The notes under the pieces were generated by a model. It was not told where the DNA came from, did not search any database, and was given only the letters and a program-made list of their open reading frames with translations. A stretch of 58,186 nt of DNA from Gluconobacter sp. Dm-62 (GTDB lineage Bacteria; Pseudomonadota; Alphaproteobacteria; Acetobacterales; Acetobacteraceae): assembly GCF_018256155.1 (NCBI RefSeq), contig NZ_JAERLY010000016.1, forward strand, positions 1 to 58,186. Reading direction: 5' to 3'. This document shows, piece by piece, positions 45,707 through 58,186 of this stretch. Made by a program: the position numbers and the translations under genes. Position 1 is the first letter of the stretch. Each line of letters starts with the position of its first letter.

Positions 45707-45885
45707 AATCATGGCCGGAGTATCAAACTTTTTCTGGCAAAATGCGTTAACAGGGTTCAAAAGACGGCGACACACGAAGCGATCACAACTTCGTTATCCT
45801 GTTGCGCGTGCGTCAGGTCCTTCAGGGGGCCGACAATCCTCCTGACGGTCCCAGCGTTTCGCCCTCTACCCAGAAGGCAATCGAC

Positions 45886-47313
45886 ATGTTTGGCTTGTCG
45901 GCTCTATTCCTGGCGCGTTTCCAGTTCGCGTTCACGGTCGGGTTTCACATCGTGTTCCCGGCATTCTCGATCGGTCTCGCAGCCTATCTCGCTGTTCTTG
46001 AAGGCCTGTGGCTCAAGACAGGCCGCAGTGCCTATCTCGACCTCTTCAAATACTGGCTGAAAGTTTTCTCCGTCGTCTTCGGCATGGGCGTGGTCTCCGG
46101 CCTCGTCATGTCCTACGAATTCGGGACGAACTGGTCAGCGTTCTCCCAGAAGGCCGGCCCGATCCTCGGCCCGATGCTGGCCTATGAGGTCATGACGGCC
46201 TTCTTCCTTGAAGCCGGCTTCCTCGGCGTCATGATGTTCGGCCTCAACCGCGTCGGCAAAGGTTTGCATTTTGCCGCCACCTGCATGGTTTCGATCGGCA
46301 CCCTGATCTCCATGAGCTGGATCCTGTCGTCCAATTCCTGGATGCAGACACCCCGCGGCTATCGCATCGACGAGGCCACCGGCCGCTTCCTGCCCGTTGA
46401 CTGGTGGCAGATCGTCTTCAACCCGTCTTTCCCGTACCGCATCGTCCATATGGGCCTCGCAGCCTTCCTGTGCGTGGCGTTCATCGTGGCCGGCGTTGCT
46501 GGATGGCATCTGCTGAAAGCCCGTCGTGAAGGCCGTCAGGCGTCCGAACAGGTCCGCCTGATGTTCTCCATGGCCATGTGGATGGCTGCCATCGTCTCCC
46601 CGATCCAGGTTCTGGCCGGTGATACGCAGGGCCTGAACACACTGGAATACCAGCCTGCCAAGATCGCCGCCCTCGAAGGCGACTGGGAGTCCGAAAGCCG
46701 CGCGCCGGAGCTTCTGTTCGGTATCCCGGACATGAAGAACGAAACGACGCATTTCAAGATCGCCATCCCCTATCTGGGCTCACTGATCCTGACGCACAGC
46801 CTCGACGGCAAGGTGCCGGGCCTGAAGGACTATCCGAAGGAAGACCGTCCCTACTCCCCGCTGCTGTTCTTCTCCTTCCGCATCATGATCGCGCTCGGCA
46901 TGCTGATGGTGCTGGTCGGACTGTGGTCGCTGTACCTGCGCTGGAAGGGCAAACTTTACGATACGCCGCTTCTGCACCGTATCGCGCTGTTCATGTCGCC
47001 TGCGGGCTTCCTGGCTCTGCTGTGTGGCTGGATTACGACTGAAGTCGGCCGTCAGCCCTTCACGGTCTATGGCCTGCTCCGCACGTCTGACAGCGTCTCC
47101 CCGATCGCCCTGCCGAACATCGCAACGTCGATGATCGCCTTCGTCATCGTCTATTTCATCGTGTTTGCAGGCGGCATCACCATCCTGCTGCGGACTTTCG
47201 CTGAAGAACCCCATCCGGATCAGCACGGCCCGGCCGAAGATCAGCCCCAGCGTGCTGCGGGTACAACACAGGTCTCCCATCAGCCCCAGCCCGACGCTGG
47301 CATGGCGGAGTAA
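45886..47313 (+). CDS. cioA: Cytochrome bd-type quinol oxidase subunit I (CioA/CydA)
   Basis: 475 residues from ATG 45886 (AGAAGG upstream); an earlier frame from 45802 is leader. FARFQFAFTVGFHIVFPAF-like start holds the His for a haem ligand, and GWITTEVGRQPFTVYGLLRT is the conserved quinol-oxidase motif; the Phe in place of Trp fits the cyanide-insensitive (CIO) branch. The Q-loop is short. It oxidises ubiquinol and reduces O2 without pumping protons, accepting electrons from the periplasmic dehydrogenases. cioB follows after 5 bases. Confidence 0.95.
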   Translation: MFGLSALFLARFQFAFTVGFHIVFPAFSIGLAAYLAVLEGLWLKTGRSAYLDLFKYWLKVFSVVFGMGVVSGLVMSYEFGTNWSAFSQKAGPILGPMLAYEVMTAFFLEAGFLGVMMFGLNRVGKGLHFAATCMVSIGTLISMSWILSSNSWMQTPRGYRIDEATGRFLPVDWWQIVFNPSFPYRIVHMGLAAFLCVAFIVAGVAGWHLLKARREGRQASEQVRLMFSMAMWMAAIVSPIQVLAGDTQGLNTLEYQPAKIAALEGDWESESRAPELLFGIPDMKNETTHFKIAIPYLGSLILTHSLDGKVPGLKDYPKEDRPYSPLLFFSFRIMIALGMLMVLVGLWSLYLRWKGKLYDTPLLHRIALFMSPAGFLALLCGWITTEVGRQPFTVYGLLRTSDSVSPIALPNIATSMIAFVIVYFIVFAGGITILLRTFAEEPHPDQHGPAEDQPQRAAGTTQVSHQPQPDAGMAE

Positions 47314-47318
47314 GAACC

Positions 47319-48344
47319 ATGACAGAAACAGCCGGCTTCTGGCTCCCGGTGGTCTGGGCGCTGCTCGCAGCCACCGCCATCTTTCTCTACATCTGCCTCG
47401 ATGGTTTCGACCTCGGGATCGGCATTCTTTTTCTCAAGGAAAAGGACGCTGATCACCGCAACCTCATGGTCAACACCGTCGCCCCTGTCTGGGACGGCAA
47501 CGAGACCTGGATGATCTTCGGAGGCGCCGCTCTCTACGGCGTCTTTCCCGTCGCCTACGGCACGATCCTTCCGGCGCTTTACCTGCCGGTCCTGTTCATG
47601 CTGCTCGCCCTAATCCTGCGCGGCGTGTCTTTTGAGTTCCGCTTCAAGGCAGAATCGCCCATGAGCAAGTTCTTCTGGGACACGGCTTTCTGCGGTGGCT
47701 CTTTCGTGGCGGCCTTCATGCAGGGCGTCATTCTCGGAACGCTCGTTCAGGGTATCAAGGTCGAGAACAACGTGTTCGTCGGCTCCAGCTTCGACTGGTT
47801 CTCGCCGTTCTCGCTGTTCTGTGGCCTCGCTGTCGTCATCGGCTATGCGCTTCTCGGCGCAACATGGCTGCTGTGGCGCTGTGAAGGCGAACTGCACGAC
47901 ACCATGCGCCGGATCTCCTTCGGCCTTGCCGGGCTGATGCTGGTCACGATCGCACTGGTCTCCGTGTGGACGCCCATGCTGCACACCACCTACATGCAGC
48001 ATTGGCTCGCCATGCCGCAGCTGGCGCTCGTTGCCCCGGTTCCTGTCGCCGTAGCCGTCCTCGCAGGCGTGCTGTTTCTCGGACTGCGCAACCCGCGCTC
48101 GCACCTGCTGCCGTTCGTCGCAACACTGGGCCTGTTCTTCCTGTGCTTCAGCGGTCTGGGCATCAACGTGTGGCCCTATATCGTACCGCCGACCATCACC
48201 ATCTGGCAGGCCTCTTCTCCGCCGGAGAGCCAGACCTTCCTGCTGGTCGGCACGATGTTCCTCCTGCCGCTGATCCTGTCCTACACGGCCTATTCGTACT
48301 ACGTGTTCCGCGGAAAAATGTCCGCCGGGCACCACTACCACTAA
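47319..48344 (+). CDS. cioB: Cytochrome bd-type quinol oxidase subunit II (CioB/CydB)
   Basis: 341 residues with eight to nine hydrophobic segments. LDGFDLGIGILFL, NTVAPVWDGNETWMIFGGAA and YGTILPALYLPV near the start are CydB signatures, and FEFRFKAESPMSKFFWDTAF follows. It is the partner of CioA and carries no haem of its own. Confidence 0.95.
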   Translation: MTETAGFWLPVVWALLAATAIFLYICLDGFDLGIGILFLKEKDADHRNLMVNTVAPVWDGNETWMIFGGAALYGVFPVAYGTILPALYLPVLFMLLALILRGVSFEFRFKAESPMSKFFWDTAFCGGSFVAAFMQGVILGTLVQGIKVENNVFVGSSFDWFSPFSLFCGLAVVIGYALLGATWLLWRCEGELHDTMRRISFGLAGLMLVTIALVSVWTPMLHTTYMQHWLAMPQLALVAPVPVAVAVLAGVLFLGLRNPRSHLLPFVATLGLFFLCFSGLGINVWPYIVPPTITIWQASSPPESQTFLLVGTMFLLPLILSYTAYSYYVFRGKMSAGHHYH

Positions 48345-52888: not shown

Positions 52889-53374
52889 TCAGAGCTGCGC
52901 CAACTCCTGCAACGCCCGAAGGATATCGTCCGGCGACGGCGGACATCCCGGAATCGAACGCCGCACAGGCGTTAGCGCCTGCAACCCGCCCAGCGTTGCA
53001 TAACTGGCTGGAAATGGCCCTCCATCCACCGCACAGGCTCCCACCGCAATCAGGCTCTTCCCCGGTGGCATTGCCCGCCACGCCCGATCAATCATCTCCG
53101 CACAGACCCGGGTCACAGCTCCTGTCAGCAACAGCCAATCCGCATCCGCAGGATCACTCACCCACACAAAACCTGCCTGCTCCAGCGCGAAGGCACTGCC
53201 GTTCAGAGACTCGATCTCCATAAAACAACCTTCGCACCCACCGGTCTCCAGAACGTAAATCCTGATCGAACGCTCCCGACGCGGCGTCGCACCATCCGCA
53301 GCCGGGCGCCAGCGCGCAGCGTCCATGAAGGCATAAAGGAGGCTCAAAGGCCCGGTGCGCTGTACGATTTTCAT
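52889..53374 (-). CDS. NuoB/HyfI-like Fe-S small subunit of a hydrogenase-related complex
   Basis: 161 residues from ATG 53374, overlapping the upstream stop by four bases. Cys47 and Cys50 (TGGCEGCFMEIE), Cys114 (VGACAVDGG) and Cys144 (PGCPPSPDDIL) are the four positions that hold the proximal [4Fe-4S] cluster (N2 of complex I). The CxxC spacing is that of group-4 hydrogenase small subunits; complex I NuoB has adjacent cysteines. An N-terminal stretch of about 38 residues is the usual membrane-facing helix. It is last of the six-gene run. No ferredoxin-type partner is encoded here. Confidence 0.82.
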   Translation of the reverse strand: MKIVQRTGPLSLLYAFMDAARWRPAADGATPRRERSIRIYVLETGGCEGCFMEIESLNGSAFALEQAGFVWVSDPADADWLLLTGAVTRVCAEMIDRAWRAMPPGKSLIAVGACAVDGGPFPASYATLGGLQALTPVRRSIPGCPPSPDDILRALQELAQL

Positions 53375-54810
53375 AGCGCTATCCCCGCCGGTGAAATCCC
53401 GATCGAGCCCAGAGCCGCCGGGACACGACTGACAGGATAGCCGCGCAGCATCGCACCCAGAGCCGGCAGAAGCGCCACGCCCGGATCCCGCACATGAAAG
53501 TTCTCGATGAGTCCGTTCTTCAGCCGCACCCAGTACCACACGTCTCCCCGCGCGCCCTCGGCCACGCCAATACCCTCATCCGTCCGGTCCGGGGCTGGCT
53601 CATCGTCTTCCAGACCAATGCTGCCCAGAATCCGCTCTAGAAGCTTCAGAGAGTCGCGAATTTCCGCGAGCCGCAGCCCCTCACGCGCCCGGGCATCACC
53701 CCGGCTCGATCCCGTCGCGCGCAACGCCTCAAGTCGCATCCCGGCTTCCCGACGCCGCATGTCCATGCTTCGCCCGCTGGCACGTCCCGTCACGCCGCCG
53801 ACGGCAAAGCGCTCCGCCAGCCGCGCGTCCAGCACGGCAAACCCGTCCAGACGCGGCGCAAAAACCCGATGAAGTTCCTCCAGCGCCGCCAGACGCGGCT
53901 GCATCACCTCATGCACGGCCTGAACCAACGGTACGATCTCCAGACCTTCACGGAAGCCGTCACAGCTCACCATATCCATCAGCCGCCGGGAAGCGCCCTG
54001 TTCCGCACAGGCCCGCGCAATGGCCTCCCGCGCATGATCGCAATGCGTCGCGAGCAGTTCCGCGTCCACCCCCCGCGCCGTCCGGGCCATATCGAACAGA
54101 TGGAGCGACATCCGCTCGATCTCCAGCAAAGCCATCCAGACATCACGGATGCCCGGCCCCGGAACTAGCCCCCGCGCCTGCGCCACGGCGCGCGCAAAGG
54201 CGAGCGGATGCGCCACGAACCCACCTGCCGTCATGCGCGACACCAGCGGCATGGCCTCTTCCGGCGTGCGGCCCAGCAGACGCGACACAACCCCGCGATG
54301 CGCCCCGCCCGCACAGACATCCACATTCCGGATTTTCCCCTTCAGAACGTCAAAGGAGAACTCCAGCGGGCCACTCAGTCCCGTCTGTTCAGGGCGCAGC
54401 AAATGGCTTCCCGCCAGCGGCCGCAACCCTCCCGCAGCCGGCCCCGGACGGGACGACAGTGGCCAGGTGGACGTCCAGCCCCCCTCATCCAGCGCGGGTG
54501 CCCCATTTCCGCGAGCGTCCATCGCCTCCACGCCATACAGGTCGTACGCCACGCGCTCGCCCCATTCGGCCCCGGCAAAGCGCGAGGACAGCGCGAGATA
54601 ACGCCGCTCTTCCACTGCCGTACTCGCCAGCAGAGGACGATCCCCTTCCAGCAGCAATACATAGGCGCGGCCATCATCTGCCCAGCAGGACATCAGCGGT
54701 AGCGCTGCCCCCGGTGCAGCCAGCATTGCGTTCCACTGTTCGGAATCGAGATGATAATGCGACAGCGCAACCCGCTCGCCGCTTCGGATGATGCGCCCCA
54801 TACCGATCAT
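53371..54810 (-). CDS. NuoC-NuoD/HyfG-like large subunit lacking Ni-Fe cysteines
   Basis: 479 residues from ATG 54810, coupled to the upstream stop by ATGA. Residues about 1-135 are NuoC-like (EWGERVAYDLYGVE, about 82-95). The rest is the NuoD/large hydrogenase-subunit fold with GGAHRGVVSRLLGR (about 168-181) and LLEIERMSLHLFDMA. Where hydrogenases have RxCGxC the sequence is RMTAGGFVAH (about 192-201), and the C-terminal DPCxxC site is replaced by SIGISPAGIAL at the very end. Both Ni-Fe ligand pairs are therefore absent. The catalytic Ni-Fe role is excluded; a quinone-like pocket as in complex I, or another substrate, is open. Confidence 0.82.
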   Translation of the reverse strand: MIGMGRIIRSGERVALSHYHLDSEQWNAMLAAPGAALPLMSCWADDGRAYVLLLEGDRPLLASTAVEERRYLALSSRFAGAEWGERVAYDLYGVEAMDARGNGAPALDEGGWTSTWPLSSRPGPAAGGLRPLAGSHLLRPEQTGLSGPLEFSFDVLKGKIRNVDVCAGGAHRGVVSRLLGRTPEEAMPLVSRMTAGGFVAHPLAFARAVAQARGLVPGPGIRDVWMALLEIERMSLHLFDMARTARGVDAELLATHCDHAREAIARACAEQGASRRLMDMVSCDGFREGLEIVPLVQAVHEVMQPRLAALEELHRVFAPRLDGFAVLDARLAERFAVGGVTGRASGRSMDMRRREAGMRLEALRATGSSRGDARAREGLRLAEIRDSLKLLERILGSIGLEDDEPAPDRTDEGIGVAEGARGDVWYWVRLKNGLIENFHVRDPGVALLPALGAMLRGYPVSRVPAALGSIGISPAGIAL

Positions 54811-55895
54811 GGCCGCCATCCCGTCACCGGATGCCAGGCCAGAAACAGCGGGCCACATAGCCCGCCCAGCAACAGAACCGCCTGCATCACGGCCACCATG
54901 CCCCGCTCACCCCGCGCAAACGCAGGCAGCAGCGTCATGTGCCGCACCGACCACAGGGCAGGCAGCAGACACACGACCAGCAGAACAAGCTGCCCTGTCT
55001 CAAGCGAACGCCCGATCCCGACAAGCGCACAGAACACCGGCCAGGGTGCAGCCCCGGCCGCGATCCCATCCTCACCGCCAGCACCGCGCAGATCCAGAAC
55101 GGCGAGCCCCAGCGCCGCAAGCAGCAGCAGAACCAGCGCAGTTCCCTCTCCAGTCGCAGCCGCGAGCGCACCGAAAGCAGACAGCATCGGCAGGGACATG
55201 CTCCGGCCCGAGGAGCGAGACGAAACGAGCATGATGATCGTCCCAAAACCCGCGATCAGCATCAGCAGATGAACCAGCGGATAAGCGCTCAGACGCAACA
55301 TCAGCATCAGTGCCGAAAACCTCAGCCCCGTGTCCAGAAGGGCCGCTTCAGGCGCCGGAGCAGGTGACGGCCCAAGACCGGCCACCATGCACAGGCCAAC
55401 CGTCAGCAGCACCGCACCAAGCGACGACTGCTGCATCGGCAGAAGCGACGCTCCCAGAAGCCCCAGAACCACACCGCCCAGCCGGCTGCGCGCCATATCC
55501 CAGACGACGAGCGCCTTTCGCGGTCCCCGCCCCTCGCGCCAGGCCAGAAGAACCGTTCCCGCACCACACAGGACCGTCACCGCAAAAGCCGAATGAATGT
55601 TCAGCGCCAGAAGCGCACAGCCCGTCACCAGAAACGGCAGGATCCGTCCGGTCCGGTCCTGAGCCTGCGGCAGAAGCAGCGGAATGGCCGTCACGATGCA
55701 CGAACAGGCCGCCGCCAGCGCATCTGTTCCCGGCATGAGCCAGACAGCCAGCGGCGTAATGACGAGCCCGGCCACGGCAAAGGTCAGGCTGCTGGCGGAC
55801 TGTCGGTTTTCCGGCGTCAGAAACAGCAGGAATGCCGCCAGAAGCGGCCAGACGGTCACGGCAAACAGCGTCCCGACAGGAGCAAGCGGATGCAT
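54807..55895 (-). CDS. HyfF/NuoN-like antiporter-type membrane subunit, shortened
   Basis: 362 residues and about 10-11 hydrophobic segments; HyfF and NuoN homologues usually have about 480-520. The region expected to read KxGxxPxHxWLPDAH is VAGLGPSPAPAPEAALLDTG, so the usual Lys and His are lost. RFSALMLMLRLSAYPLVH follows as the next helix. The ATG overlaps the upstream stop (TGATG). Assignment rests on operon position and topology more than on sequence. Confidence 0.6.
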   Translation of the reverse strand: MHPLAPVGTLFAVTVWPLLAAFLLFLTPENRQSASSLTFAVAGLVITPLAVWLMPGTDALAAACSCIVTAIPLLLPQAQDRTGRILPFLVTGCALLALNIHSAFAVTVLCGAGTVLLAWREGRGPRKALVVWDMARSRLGGVVLGLLGASLLPMQQSSLGAVLLTVGLCMVAGLGPSPAPAPEAALLDTGLRFSALMLMLRLSAYPLVHLLMLIAGFGTIIMLVSSRSSGRSMSLPMLSAFGALAAATGEGTALVLLLLAALGLAVLDLRGAGGEDGIAAGAAPWPVFCALVGIGRSLETGQLVLLVVCLLPALWSVRHMTLLPAFARGERGMVAVMQAVLLLGGLCGPLFLAWHPVTGWRP

Positions 55896-56416
55896 CAGAC
55901 GTCCTCCACCCTGCGCCATGCCAGACGCGGCAGAAGCGTAACGCCCAGCGCAGCCAGAACACCCCACAGGCTCAGCGCCGCCGCAAATAGCGGCCATGAA
56001 TGCAGCACGCAGGCCACGACAACCAGCCCGTCCGCAGCCCGCAGAAGCCCCGTGAACTGAACCAGCGGCGCTCCCCATGCAGCACCGCAAAGACCCGCCA
56101 GAACCGCCCCCGCGCCCAGCACCGGCGCAAGCCCCAGCCCCGCGCCGGACAGCCCGAGCGCCAGCAGCAGCACAAGCGTTCCGACAACCGGCAGCACAGC
56201 CGCCCGGTCCGGCGCTTCCGCCGCAAACCGCCGCAGCCAGGCCCATGCCAGCACATTCAGCCCGACCAGAGCCGCAGACGTCAGAAGCGCCATCAGTCCG
56301 GAACACACCGTCGCCCCGGCAAAGGCACAGACAGCCCCGTAAAGCGGCAATCCCCGTCCGTCCTTGCCCAAACCAGCAAGGGCCAGCAGCAGCAGTAAGC
56401 CAAACCCGACAATCAT
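55895..56416 (-). CDS. HyfE/NuoK-like membrane subunit
   Basis: 173 residues from ATG 56416 (ATGA overlap with the upstream gene). About six hydrophobic segments. FTGLLRAADGLVVVACVLHS resembles the NuoK/HyfE pattern of a Gly-rich helix next to an acidic residue. HyfE is usually about 215 residues, so it is short. The call depends on position between the HyfC- and HyfF-like genes. Confidence 0.55.
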   Translation of the reverse strand: MIVGFGLLLLLALAGLGKDGRGLPLYGAVCAFAGATVCSGLMALLTSAALVGLNVLAWAWLRRFAAEAPDRAAVLPVVGTLVLLLALGLSGAGLGLAPVLGAGAVLAGLCGAAWGAPLVQFTGLLRAADGLVVVACVLHSWPLFAAALSLWGVLAALGVTLLPRLAWRRVEDV

Positions 56417-57282
56417 GTGCCGAACCTCCCCGCCAGAGCCAAAAGAAGCGCCACTCCCGCAAACAGCGCCGTCAGCCGCGCACTCCGCTCCTGCGCCATC
56501 AGACGCAGCCCGACCGCCACAGCCACGGTCAGTGCCAGCCGTCCACCCAGCGCCAGCAACCCGAGCCACCAGCCCTGCACACCGCCCTGCGTCAGCCCGA
56601 CACTCACCGGCAGCGCCAGATCCGCCAGCAACAGCAGCCAGCCACAGTTCAGCACATTGGCAATGCTGCGCGCGGCCTCACGTTCGTGCCGGTCCCGCAG
56701 GCCGGACAACATCTGCGTCACATCTTCCGAGCGCAGAGGCGGACACGCAATTCCGAGCGCCAGCGCACAGGCCGCAAGCGCCCCTTCGAGACCCGGCTCG
56801 GGCTCGATATGCAGCATCGCACACAGGCCACCCAGCCCGTCCGTCCCCGGTGCGGCCAGTGCAATTAGCGCCTCGGTCAGACACAGCAGCAGAACCGCAG
56901 GAACCAGACGCGCCGCCTCACCCTGCAACAGGCCCGGCCCCAGAAATCCCCGCCCCAGCAGGACAACCAGCCCGATCACAAGCGGATCAGCCAAAGACGA
57001 CAGTACCGAGCCCGTCGTAACCGCGGGCAGGCACACAAGCGTCAGCACACCAGCCGTCAGGGCCAGCGCCGGACGCCCGCTTAACGGAGCCCGAAACACC
57101 GACTTCCAGAAAAGCCCGGCCTGCAACATCCGGAACCGCACCGCCCCGACCGACCGCCCCGCCAACCAGAACGGCAGCGCTTCCAGACACCAGCCCAGCA
57201 CCGGCGCCAAAACAAGAAGCAGACCAAGCTGAAACAGCGCTTCCAGCACGGTCAGCAGGATCATCCCGATCTCATGCCCCAT
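56413..57282 (-). CDS. HyfC/NuoH-like membrane subunit
   Basis: 289 residues from ATG 57282 (TGATG overlap); a longer frame to 57438 is a shadow of the upstream gene. About eight hydrophobic helices. LAGRSVGAVRFRMLQAG and FWKSVFRAP fit the loop after helix 1 in NuoH/HyfC proteins, where the family has a GRRGP..lQpyrDl.KL pattern. The acidic cytoplasmic loop typical of NuoH near the quinone site is not clear. Confidence 0.6.
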   Translation of the reverse strand: MGHEIGMILLTVLEALFQLGLLLVLAPVLGWCLEALPFWLAGRSVGAVRFRMLQAGLFWKSVFRAPLSGRPALALTAGVLTLVCLPAVTTGSVLSSLADPLVIGLVVLLGRGFLGPGLLQGEAARLVPAVLLLCLTEALIALAAPGTDGLGGLCAMLHIEPEPGLEGALAACALALGIACPPLRSEDVTQMLSGLRDRHEREAARSIANVLNCGWLLLLADLALPVSVGLTQGGVQGWWLGLLALGGRLALTVAVAVGLRLMAQERSARLTALFAGVALLLALAGRFGT

Positions 57283-58130
57283 CACGCCATCACTCCCAGC
57301 ACCGCCAGAACGAGGCCAAGAAGCACCAGCCAGAGCCCCACAGCCCCCTGACGCAGATCGGGAAGAACGGGAGCCTTCACACTTCTCATCGCCCTGAAGC
57401 GCAGTCGTCCCGCCACGATGACACGACGCGCCTTCCAACCCAGAGATGGCGCTTCCTCAAACAGTTCGTCCCCCGCCGAAAGCAGATTTCCCAACGCCGG
57501 AACAAGCGTAGAGGCGGCCTGCACAATCCCGCCAACAACCCGCCACGGACGCACCAGAACGCACCACAGAACAGCCCCTGTGAGCACGAAAGCTGGCAAC
57601 CGCAAATAGGCGCCATCCCCCCCGCCCATGCGCCAGACAGGCCAGACCCACTCTCCGCCCATGAAATGCAGAACCGGGCTCGCCACCCCGAACACCAGCG
57701 CAGGCAGCAGCAGACTTGCCGCTCCTATGAGGAGAACAGAGAGGCCCGGAACAGCCCCCTGCCACGCCCGTAAAACGCGCCCCACAACGAGAATATCCGA
57801 CAGAGACAGCAGCCCCAGCAGCAGGGCGACCGCGACACCCAGCACGCTCCAGCCCTCGACCCCGGCTGCCATACCGAGCGCGGCATGAATCCCAAGCCAT
57901 AAAACAACAAGCCCGGGCAAAGGCGGAAACGGCAGTCGCAACACGGCCAGCACCGGGAACCGAACTCCCAGTGCAGCTGTCAGAACCAGCAGTGACAGAT
58001 CAAGAAGCGTGGCTTCCAGCGCAACCCGGGCACAGACAGCTAGTCCCTCGGCCTGTGCCGCCATGACCAGAACCATCAGCAGGACAGGCCGCAGAAGCCC
58101 CAGATCCCCGGGCCGGAAGCGCTTCTTCAA
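57282..58130 (-). CDS. Polytopic membrane protein, possible C-terminal remnant of a HyfB-like subunit
   Basis: 282 residues from TTG 58130; an in-frame stop lies four codons earlier, and ATGs at 58076 and 58064 are alternatives. About seven hydrophobic segments. The second half, including GRVLRAWQGAVPGLSVLLIG and VGGIVQAASTLVPALGNLLS, has the look of the C-terminal third of HyfB/NuoL-type antiporter subunits, which are normally over 600 residues. It is the first gene of the run in this window, so the main ion-pumping half would be missing. The family call is weak; it might instead be an unrelated membrane protein. Confidence 0.45.
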   Translation of the reverse strand: MKKRFRPGDLGLLRPVLLMVLVMAAQAEGLAVCARVALEATLLDLSLLVLTAALGVRFPVLAVLRLPFPPLPGLVVLWLGIHAALGMAAGVEGWSVLGVAVALLLGLLSLSDILVVGRVLRAWQGAVPGLSVLLIGAASLLLPALVFGVASPVLHFMGGEWVWPVWRMGGGDGAYLRLPAFVLTGAVLWCVLVRPWRVVGGIVQAASTLVPALGNLLSAGDELFEEAPSLGWKARRVIVAGRLRFRAMRSVKAPVLPDLRQGAVGLWLVLLGLVLAVLGVMA

Positions 58131-58186
58131 GCGGCGTACGCGTCAGATGATAGAACCCGACATCCACAGCGTGGTCCCGCTCCTCA
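58000..58186 (-). pseudogene. Frame resembling the N-terminus of DNA polymerase III chi (HolC), broken
   Basis: A second minus-strand frame enters from the right edge, is open to TGA at 58002-58000, and overlaps the start of the 282-residue gene. Beginning at GTG 58167 it reads VDVGFYHLTRTPLEEALP, close to the start of HolC proteins (FYHLT...L..ALP). The next 37 codons do not look like HolC. The window's first minus-strand bases are TGAGGAG, which could be the stop of an upstream gene plus a ribosome-binding site; pepA often precedes holC. It may be a holC fragment left at a junction. Confidence 0.35.

Follow-up and report, generated by a model that had tools for sequence, protein, structure and literature searches.

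The operon and its large and small subunits

In this study, we analyzed a stretch of 58,186 bases from Gluconobacter sp. Dm-62 (the whole stretch, contig C7 of a 3.46 Mb Gluconobacter-like genome, is called the window below), with emphasis on an operon near its end that encodes a complex of the energy-converting hydrogenase-related (Ehr) type. On the minus strand, HyfB-, HyfC-, HyfE-, HyfF-, HyfG- and HyfI-like genes followed one another in this order, with successive overlaps of 4, 4, 1, 4 and 4 bases (Table 1). Six overlapping genes had been proposed from the letters alone (the sequence-only reading); the overlaps stood, but only five genes were complete and the first was cut. Whereas Ehr complexes and the related Hyq complexes were previously known, the new element appears, from the sequences compared here, to be an acetic acid bacterial variant that has neither the ion-channel residues nor the Hyq cysteines.

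Table 1. Genes of the operon, the adjoining contig end, and loci in other genomes that combine the small-subunit gene with nrtR
Feature	Position	Strand	Remark
HyfB/NuoL-like subunit (M1), 3' part, 276 codons	57282..58112	-	cut by contig end
HyfC/NuoH-like subunit (M2), 290 aa	56413..57285	-	GTG start; ATG 3 bases on also possible
HyfE-like subunit (M3), 173 aa	55895..56416	-	
HyfF-like antiporter-fold subunit (M4), 362 aa	54807..55895	-	channel Glu/Lys residues absent
HyfG-like large subunit, NuoC-NuoD fusion, 479 aa	53371..54810	-	Ni-Fe cysteines absent
HyfI-like small subunit, 161 aa	52889..53374	-	CxxC...C...C for one [4Fe-4S] cluster
Misplaced holC stretch, 77 bases	58110..58186		probable assembly artefact; outside operon
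Small subunit + nrtR loci	L140 (2561-8021), L141 (5880-11638), L142, L144, L055 (12338-14505), L145 (9794-11990)		

The large subunit was 94-95% identical to homologues in G. potus and an uncultured Gluconobacter genome. It matched Pfam PF00346 (1.3e-13), its best matches in the PDB were Mbh (6cfw_L, 1.4e-13) and HycE (7z0s_E, 9.6e-13), and it is homologous to the Mbh, HycE and complex I 49-kDa subunits. The earlier claim that both Ni-Fe-binding cysteine pairs are missing was borne out by comparison with E. coli HyfG, whose RVCGICGFAH and LDPCYSC correspond to RMTAGGFVAH and ...SIGISPAGIAL in the window. In an alignment of 74 Ehr large subunits (18 canonical and 56 derived, the latter from the acetic acid bacterial lineage), the four HyfG Ni-Fe columns contained cysteine in 0, 1 (L069), 0 and 0 sequences. 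The sequences behind this and the other counts are not independent, being from one family and mostly from one clade. Three further columns, matched to the HyqG cysteines by spacing only, held cysteine in 14, 17 and 16 of the 18 canonical sequences and in none of the 56 derived ones. A set of charged positions was kept in 73-74 of the 74 sequences (E85, H171, R192, E230, R275, R343, D350, R376, E383, E412, E418 and D442). We also asked whether a Ni-Fe site might lie unnoticed in another part of the protein; the only cysteines shared by half or more of the derived sequences were Cys257 (44/56) and Cys268 (50/56), and the idea was rejected.

In a phylogenetic tree the large subunit joined canonical alphaproteobacterial Ehr, with a support of 0.931 for the canonical group and a weak 0.356 for the root of the derived group. 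Together with the homology and the missing Ni-Fe ligands, this agreed with the Ehr-type relationship suggested before. The maturation protein HypD (PF01924), the only Hyp protein searched, was found in 0 of 26 genomes of the genus, including the own genome, with a positive E. coli control, in line with the earlier statement that no hydrogenase maturation gene lies in the window. A genuine [NiFe] hydrogenase was rejected, given the absent Ni-Fe cysteines and HypD.

In contrast with the lost Ni-Fe site, the predicted iron-sulfur site is intact. The small subunit matched PF01058 (1.9e-24), with HycG (7z0s_G, 4.4e-25) as its best match, and contained the previously listed Cys47, Cys50, Cys114 and Cys144, plus Cys91. 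The four cysteines of the CxxC...C...C motif were present in all 62 small subunits (60 distinct), which were drawn from 66 loci, four of them without a match, and include repeat copies of genomes (e.g. L055/L127 and L058/L126). At first, the subunit seemed to be lost in L054, L056, L057 and L059; this was rejected, since the gene sits elsewhere in those genomes, and it was present in 31 of 31 genomes searched, including those where it has been relocated out of the operon.

The contig end accounts for the short HyfB-like protein. The terminal piece (58110-58186) was identical in 77 of 77 bases to holC at G000:C22:613411-613487, with mismatch beginning at base 78, and is probably an assembly k-mer artefact that makes a false start for the HyfB-like gene. 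The missing N-terminal half closes contig C22, where it follows an aldo-keto reductase gene, an arrangement also seen in L006. Thus, the start at 58130 and the 282 residues assigned earlier had to be given up, because that start lies within the misplaced holC sequence; the frame covers 438-450 codons in ten Gluconobacter relatives.

Membrane subunits and relation to known complexes

None of the four membrane subunits matched Pfam at E 0.001, a threshold at which only the large and small subunits gave matches, and NCBIfam was also uninformative. HycC ranked with the top structural or sequence matches of the membrane subunits, the HyfC-like subunit was identified from its place in the operon and from a series of profiles that led to HyfC homologues, and Foldseek by itself was of no help on the HyfB-like model. 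The antiporter fold of the HyfF-like subunit was kept, but its channel residues were not: the Glu of transmembrane helix (TM) 5, Lys of TM7 and Glu of TM12 were present in 15, 14 and 15 of 15 canonical sequences and in 0 of 43 derived ones; of the latter, 42 are gapped at TM5 and 16 at TM12, which leaves the alignment register uncertain at these positions. The same three residues of the HyfB-like subunit were found in 15, 14 and 15 of 15 canonical sequences (14 of which are sound, L065 being a short contig where a HyfF-like frame was picked) and in 0 of 25 derived ones. The Glu of the HyfE MENG motif (IENG in canonical sequences) showed the same distribution (15/15 canonical, 0/25 derived). 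The canonical membrane-subunit set included 11 of 15 class genomes with ordinary Ehr. Among derived sequences, Asp occupied the TM12 column in 2 of 43 HyfF-like subunits and Arg the TM7 column in 1 of 25 HyfB-like ones. Lengths fell from 764 and 492 aa for the HyfB-like and HyfF-like subunits of canonical L066 to about 440-450 and 362 aa, respectively. As a separate observation, the HyfE-like protein of L069 (6484-7686) ends in a long C-terminal extension, acidic and of low complexity, and totals 400 aa, against 173-234 aa in the 26 other sequences compared.

A survey of Ehr complexes was reportedly made in 2013 by Marreiros and colleagues. Excerpts of PMC6349859 describe them as kin of group 4 hydrogenases without Ni/Fe-coordinating residues, whose Mrp antiporter-like subunits are suspected to translocate charge, and excerpts of PMC6688271 describe a six-gene complex of Methylacidiphilum, ehrABCDLS, with a suggested role in pH. 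The Gluconobacter complex is like these in that its large and small subunits are homologous to theirs and lack Ni-Fe ligands, in its antiporter fold and in a gene content resembling that of ehrABCDLS, whereas it departs from Ehr as described in that the fold remains but the ion-channel Glu and Lys residues are gone. With Hyq of Azorhizobium and relatives, as presented in parts of PMC2650096 and PMC3357923, it shares the gene order B-C-E-F-G-I, the lack of hyfA and hyfD, the HyqI-type CxxC...C...C motif and a large subunit without the two CxxC pairs; unlike Hyq, it has lost the three cysteines conserved in HyqG and the antiporter residues. Its gene content equals that of Hyq minus the regulator (hyqBCEFGI; PMC2650096, in part), although no search aimed at an hyqR-like gene was made.

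The complex had been called a further reduced Ehr, which is true, but the absence of HyfA and HyfH is not the reason, because the published Hyq operon, hyqRBCEFGI, is itself described without hyfA and hyfD (PMC2650096, excerpt); part of the impression came from the contig end. As judged from the alignments, the real reduction is the shortening of the antiporter-like subunits with replacement of their channel residues, plus the loss of the three Hyq cysteines. HyfB-, C-, E-, F-, G- and I-type subunits are also shared with hydrogenase-4 and formate hydrogenlyase (E. coli Hyf and Hyc), from which the complex differs in having no HyfA, HyfD, HyfH or HyfJ gene in the operon, no Ni-Fe cysteines and no HypD. 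NuoB, NuoCD, NuoH and NuoL/M/N-type parts recall respiratory complex I; in contrast with it, the NuoCD stretch IEYLGGC reads MTAGGFV here, and a NuoF-type subunit for NADH (reduced nicotinamide adenine dinucleotide, NAD; Complex1_51K, PF01512) is missing in 25 of 26 genomes of the genus, including the own genome, the exception being G218, which also has a true NuoD. A literature search for this operon in acetic acid bacteria found no description. The excerpt of PMC10715153 treats complex I, bc1 and other enzymes and does not have this complex among them, and neither of two papers on G. oxydans knockouts has 'hydrogenase', 'complex I' or 'NADH' as whole words in its main text.

Selection, distribution and gene neighborhoods

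The ratios of nonsynonymous to synonymous substitution rates (dN/dS, Nei-Gojobori) of the six genes against L006, L010, L016, L017 and L018 were 0.03-0.37 in 29 of 30 comparisons and saturated in the remaining one. The large subunit was found in all 26 genomes of the genus, in each case without internal stop. Neither of the two results sought against the sequence-only reading, Ni-Fe cysteines elsewhere and frameshifts in relatives, was encountered. By these measures selection maintains all six genes, and a pseudogene was rejected on the same grounds.

Across the family, 275 of 397 genomes had at least one large-subunit match at E 0.001, the weaker of which can be true NuoD. Among the 30 family genomes of completeness >=98 without true NuoD (best NuoD match weaker than 1e-60 or absent), 29 possessed the large subunit at E 3e-137 or better, a count that was read by eye and reflects few independent NuoD losses. 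The 30 genomes comprised 13 of the 14 of the same genus, 10 of g33, 2 of g61, 1 of g70, 3 of g101, and G066. The large subunit is the only NuoD-type protein found in most Gluconobacter and several related acetic acid bacteria, and it persists even in the g33 genomes, which measure 1.9-2.1 Mb.

In some other genera the small-subunit gene is unlinked from the rest of the operon. It lies away from the other five genes in L140, L141, L142 and L144 (G022, G085, G149 and G008), where nrtR, nadA, nadB and nadC follow directly, with a 4-base overlap between the small-subunit gene and nrtR in L141; in L141, Pfam identified NrtR, NadA and NadC, and NadB was named from its FAD domain and position. With L055 and L145, where nrtR also follows, the gene adjoins nrtR in six genomes from five genera, with nadABC next in four genomes from three genera. 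Against a link to NAD, nrtR stood beside the small subunit in only 6 of 46 sequences (45 loci and the window), in none of 15 Gluconobacter loci and not in the window, and the relocated small subunit of L143 (G037) had neither nrtR nor nad genes nearby. Furthermore, nadC was also near the small subunit in L138, L139 and L147, so an inherited neighborhood may explain the adjacency, which may reflect neighborhood rather than function. A search for an nrtR relative in the own genome, run without a control, returned an empty answer. Other genes were seen at these loci: a divergent Nudix-type gene at five of the six small-subunit/nrtR loci, and a long minus-strand gene beyond nrtR in L055 and L145, with phytochrome and histidine-kinase domains in L145. 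Between the large- and small-subunit genes of L138 and L139 (g33 group) lay one gene for a TonB-dependent receptor and, on the opposite strand, a diacylglycerol-kinase-like gene (families searched in L138 only).

Possible function and neighboring genes

The explanation that we favored, though tentatively, was a six-subunit membrane complex derived from Ehr/Hyq and uncoupled from antiporter-type proton pumping. Because its iron-sulfur protein is intact despite the lost metal site and the lost known proton-channel residues, the complex probably has a redox job. A cytosolic donor would reduce the single [4Fe-4S] cluster of the small subunit, which would hand the electrons on to an acceptor in the large-subunit pocket, most likely a quinone at the HyfC/HyfG/HyfI interface, and the membrane arm would be an anchor and access site rather than a pump. 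Several points weigh against this picture. The path from donor through the cluster to the acceptor, probably quinone, is inferred; neither donor nor acceptor came to light, nor did any evidence of expression. Where NuoD has the tyrosine that we take to bind quinone, the window has Ala. For the membrane subunits, the register of residues comes from alignments whose identity is very low (mostly 10-16% for structural matches). In G066 (2.0 Mb, completeness 100), both NuoD and the large subunit are absent, a natural double loss. Finally, the HyfB-like subunit retains two buried ionizable residues of its own (E207 in 18/19, H250 in 19/19) and the HyfF-like subunit a conserved Arg/Asp set (R136 and R138 each in 30/31, D188 ionizable in 31/31), which leaves room for an unorthodox ion path.

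That last point leads to the strongest of the alternatives, still an unlikely one, in which ions are still moved, by way of substitute side chains in the HyfB-like subunit (His250, Glu207) or the HyfF-like one (the Arg/Asp sets), or through the HyfC-like subunit. H250 and E207 lie deep in predicted helices and purifying selection acts on all four membrane subunits; nevertheless, the alignment places H250 away from the canonical TM12 position, the TM5, TM7 and TM12 residues are replaced in all derived sequences aligned, and the subunits are shortened relative to canonical L066. Less probable again is a non-catalytic role, as a sensor of redox or NAD status or a scaffold for respiratory enzymes, with a sensing or structural [4Fe-4S] cluster. 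The missing Ni-Fe ligands and the proximity to the gene of NrtR, a regulator of NAD biosynthesis, would suit such a role, but the charged residues of the large-subunit pocket are kept as well as in ordinary Ehr, more strictly than a scaffold would require, and both the Gluconobacter loci and the uncontrolled search of the own genome fail to show the nrtR association. Doubtful to a greater degree is a non-pumping, NAD-linked quinone-side oxidoreductase kept after complex I loss, with its iron-sulfur subunit made together with NrtR in several genera; if true, it would be an enzyme of the complex I superfamily stripped of its pump, with the redox core retained by evolution.

A hydrogen:quinone oxidoreductase working without Ni-Fe cysteines, by analogy with the 'endo-hydrogenase' Hyq of Azorhizobium, seems very improbable. 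The order of the genes is that of hyqBCEFGI, and deleting hyq slowed growth on N2, which the authors read as lost H2 recycling (excerpts of PMC2650096 and PMC3357923), yet the cysteine columns matched to HyqG are empty of Cys in the derived sequences and HypD is absent from the genus. Lost ligands, lost channel residues and shortened subunits could also be taken for a functionless relic in decay, but the low dN/dS values, the intact large subunit throughout the genus and the retention in the small g33 genomes make this hardly credible.

For complex I, the coupling of redox chemistry to proton channels far away is a long-standing question, and a lineage in which the channel residues are missing while the iron-sulfur site, the pocket of the large subunit and the antiporter fold persist would amount to an evolutionary experiment in uncoupling. 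In Gluconobacter oxydans, a species with a published whole-genome knockout collection (PMC8602642, excerpt), the function of Ehr also becomes accessible to testing.

Regarding the surroundings of the operon, Rieske-type oxygenase-like and aldo-keto reductase genes lie just upstream and co-directional in L006 (3221-5212), the reductase ending about 12 bases before the HyfB-like frame. The full order there is presumably pepA, holC, the Rieske-type gene, the aldo-keto reductase gene and then the six genes, and what we take to be pepA and holC are also upstream of the operon in L062, L067, L073 and others (names read from the sequences). In the window itself, two plus-strand genes at 45802-48344, about 4.5 kb from the operon, resemble those for subunits of a cytochrome bd-type (cydAB/cioAB) quinol oxidase.

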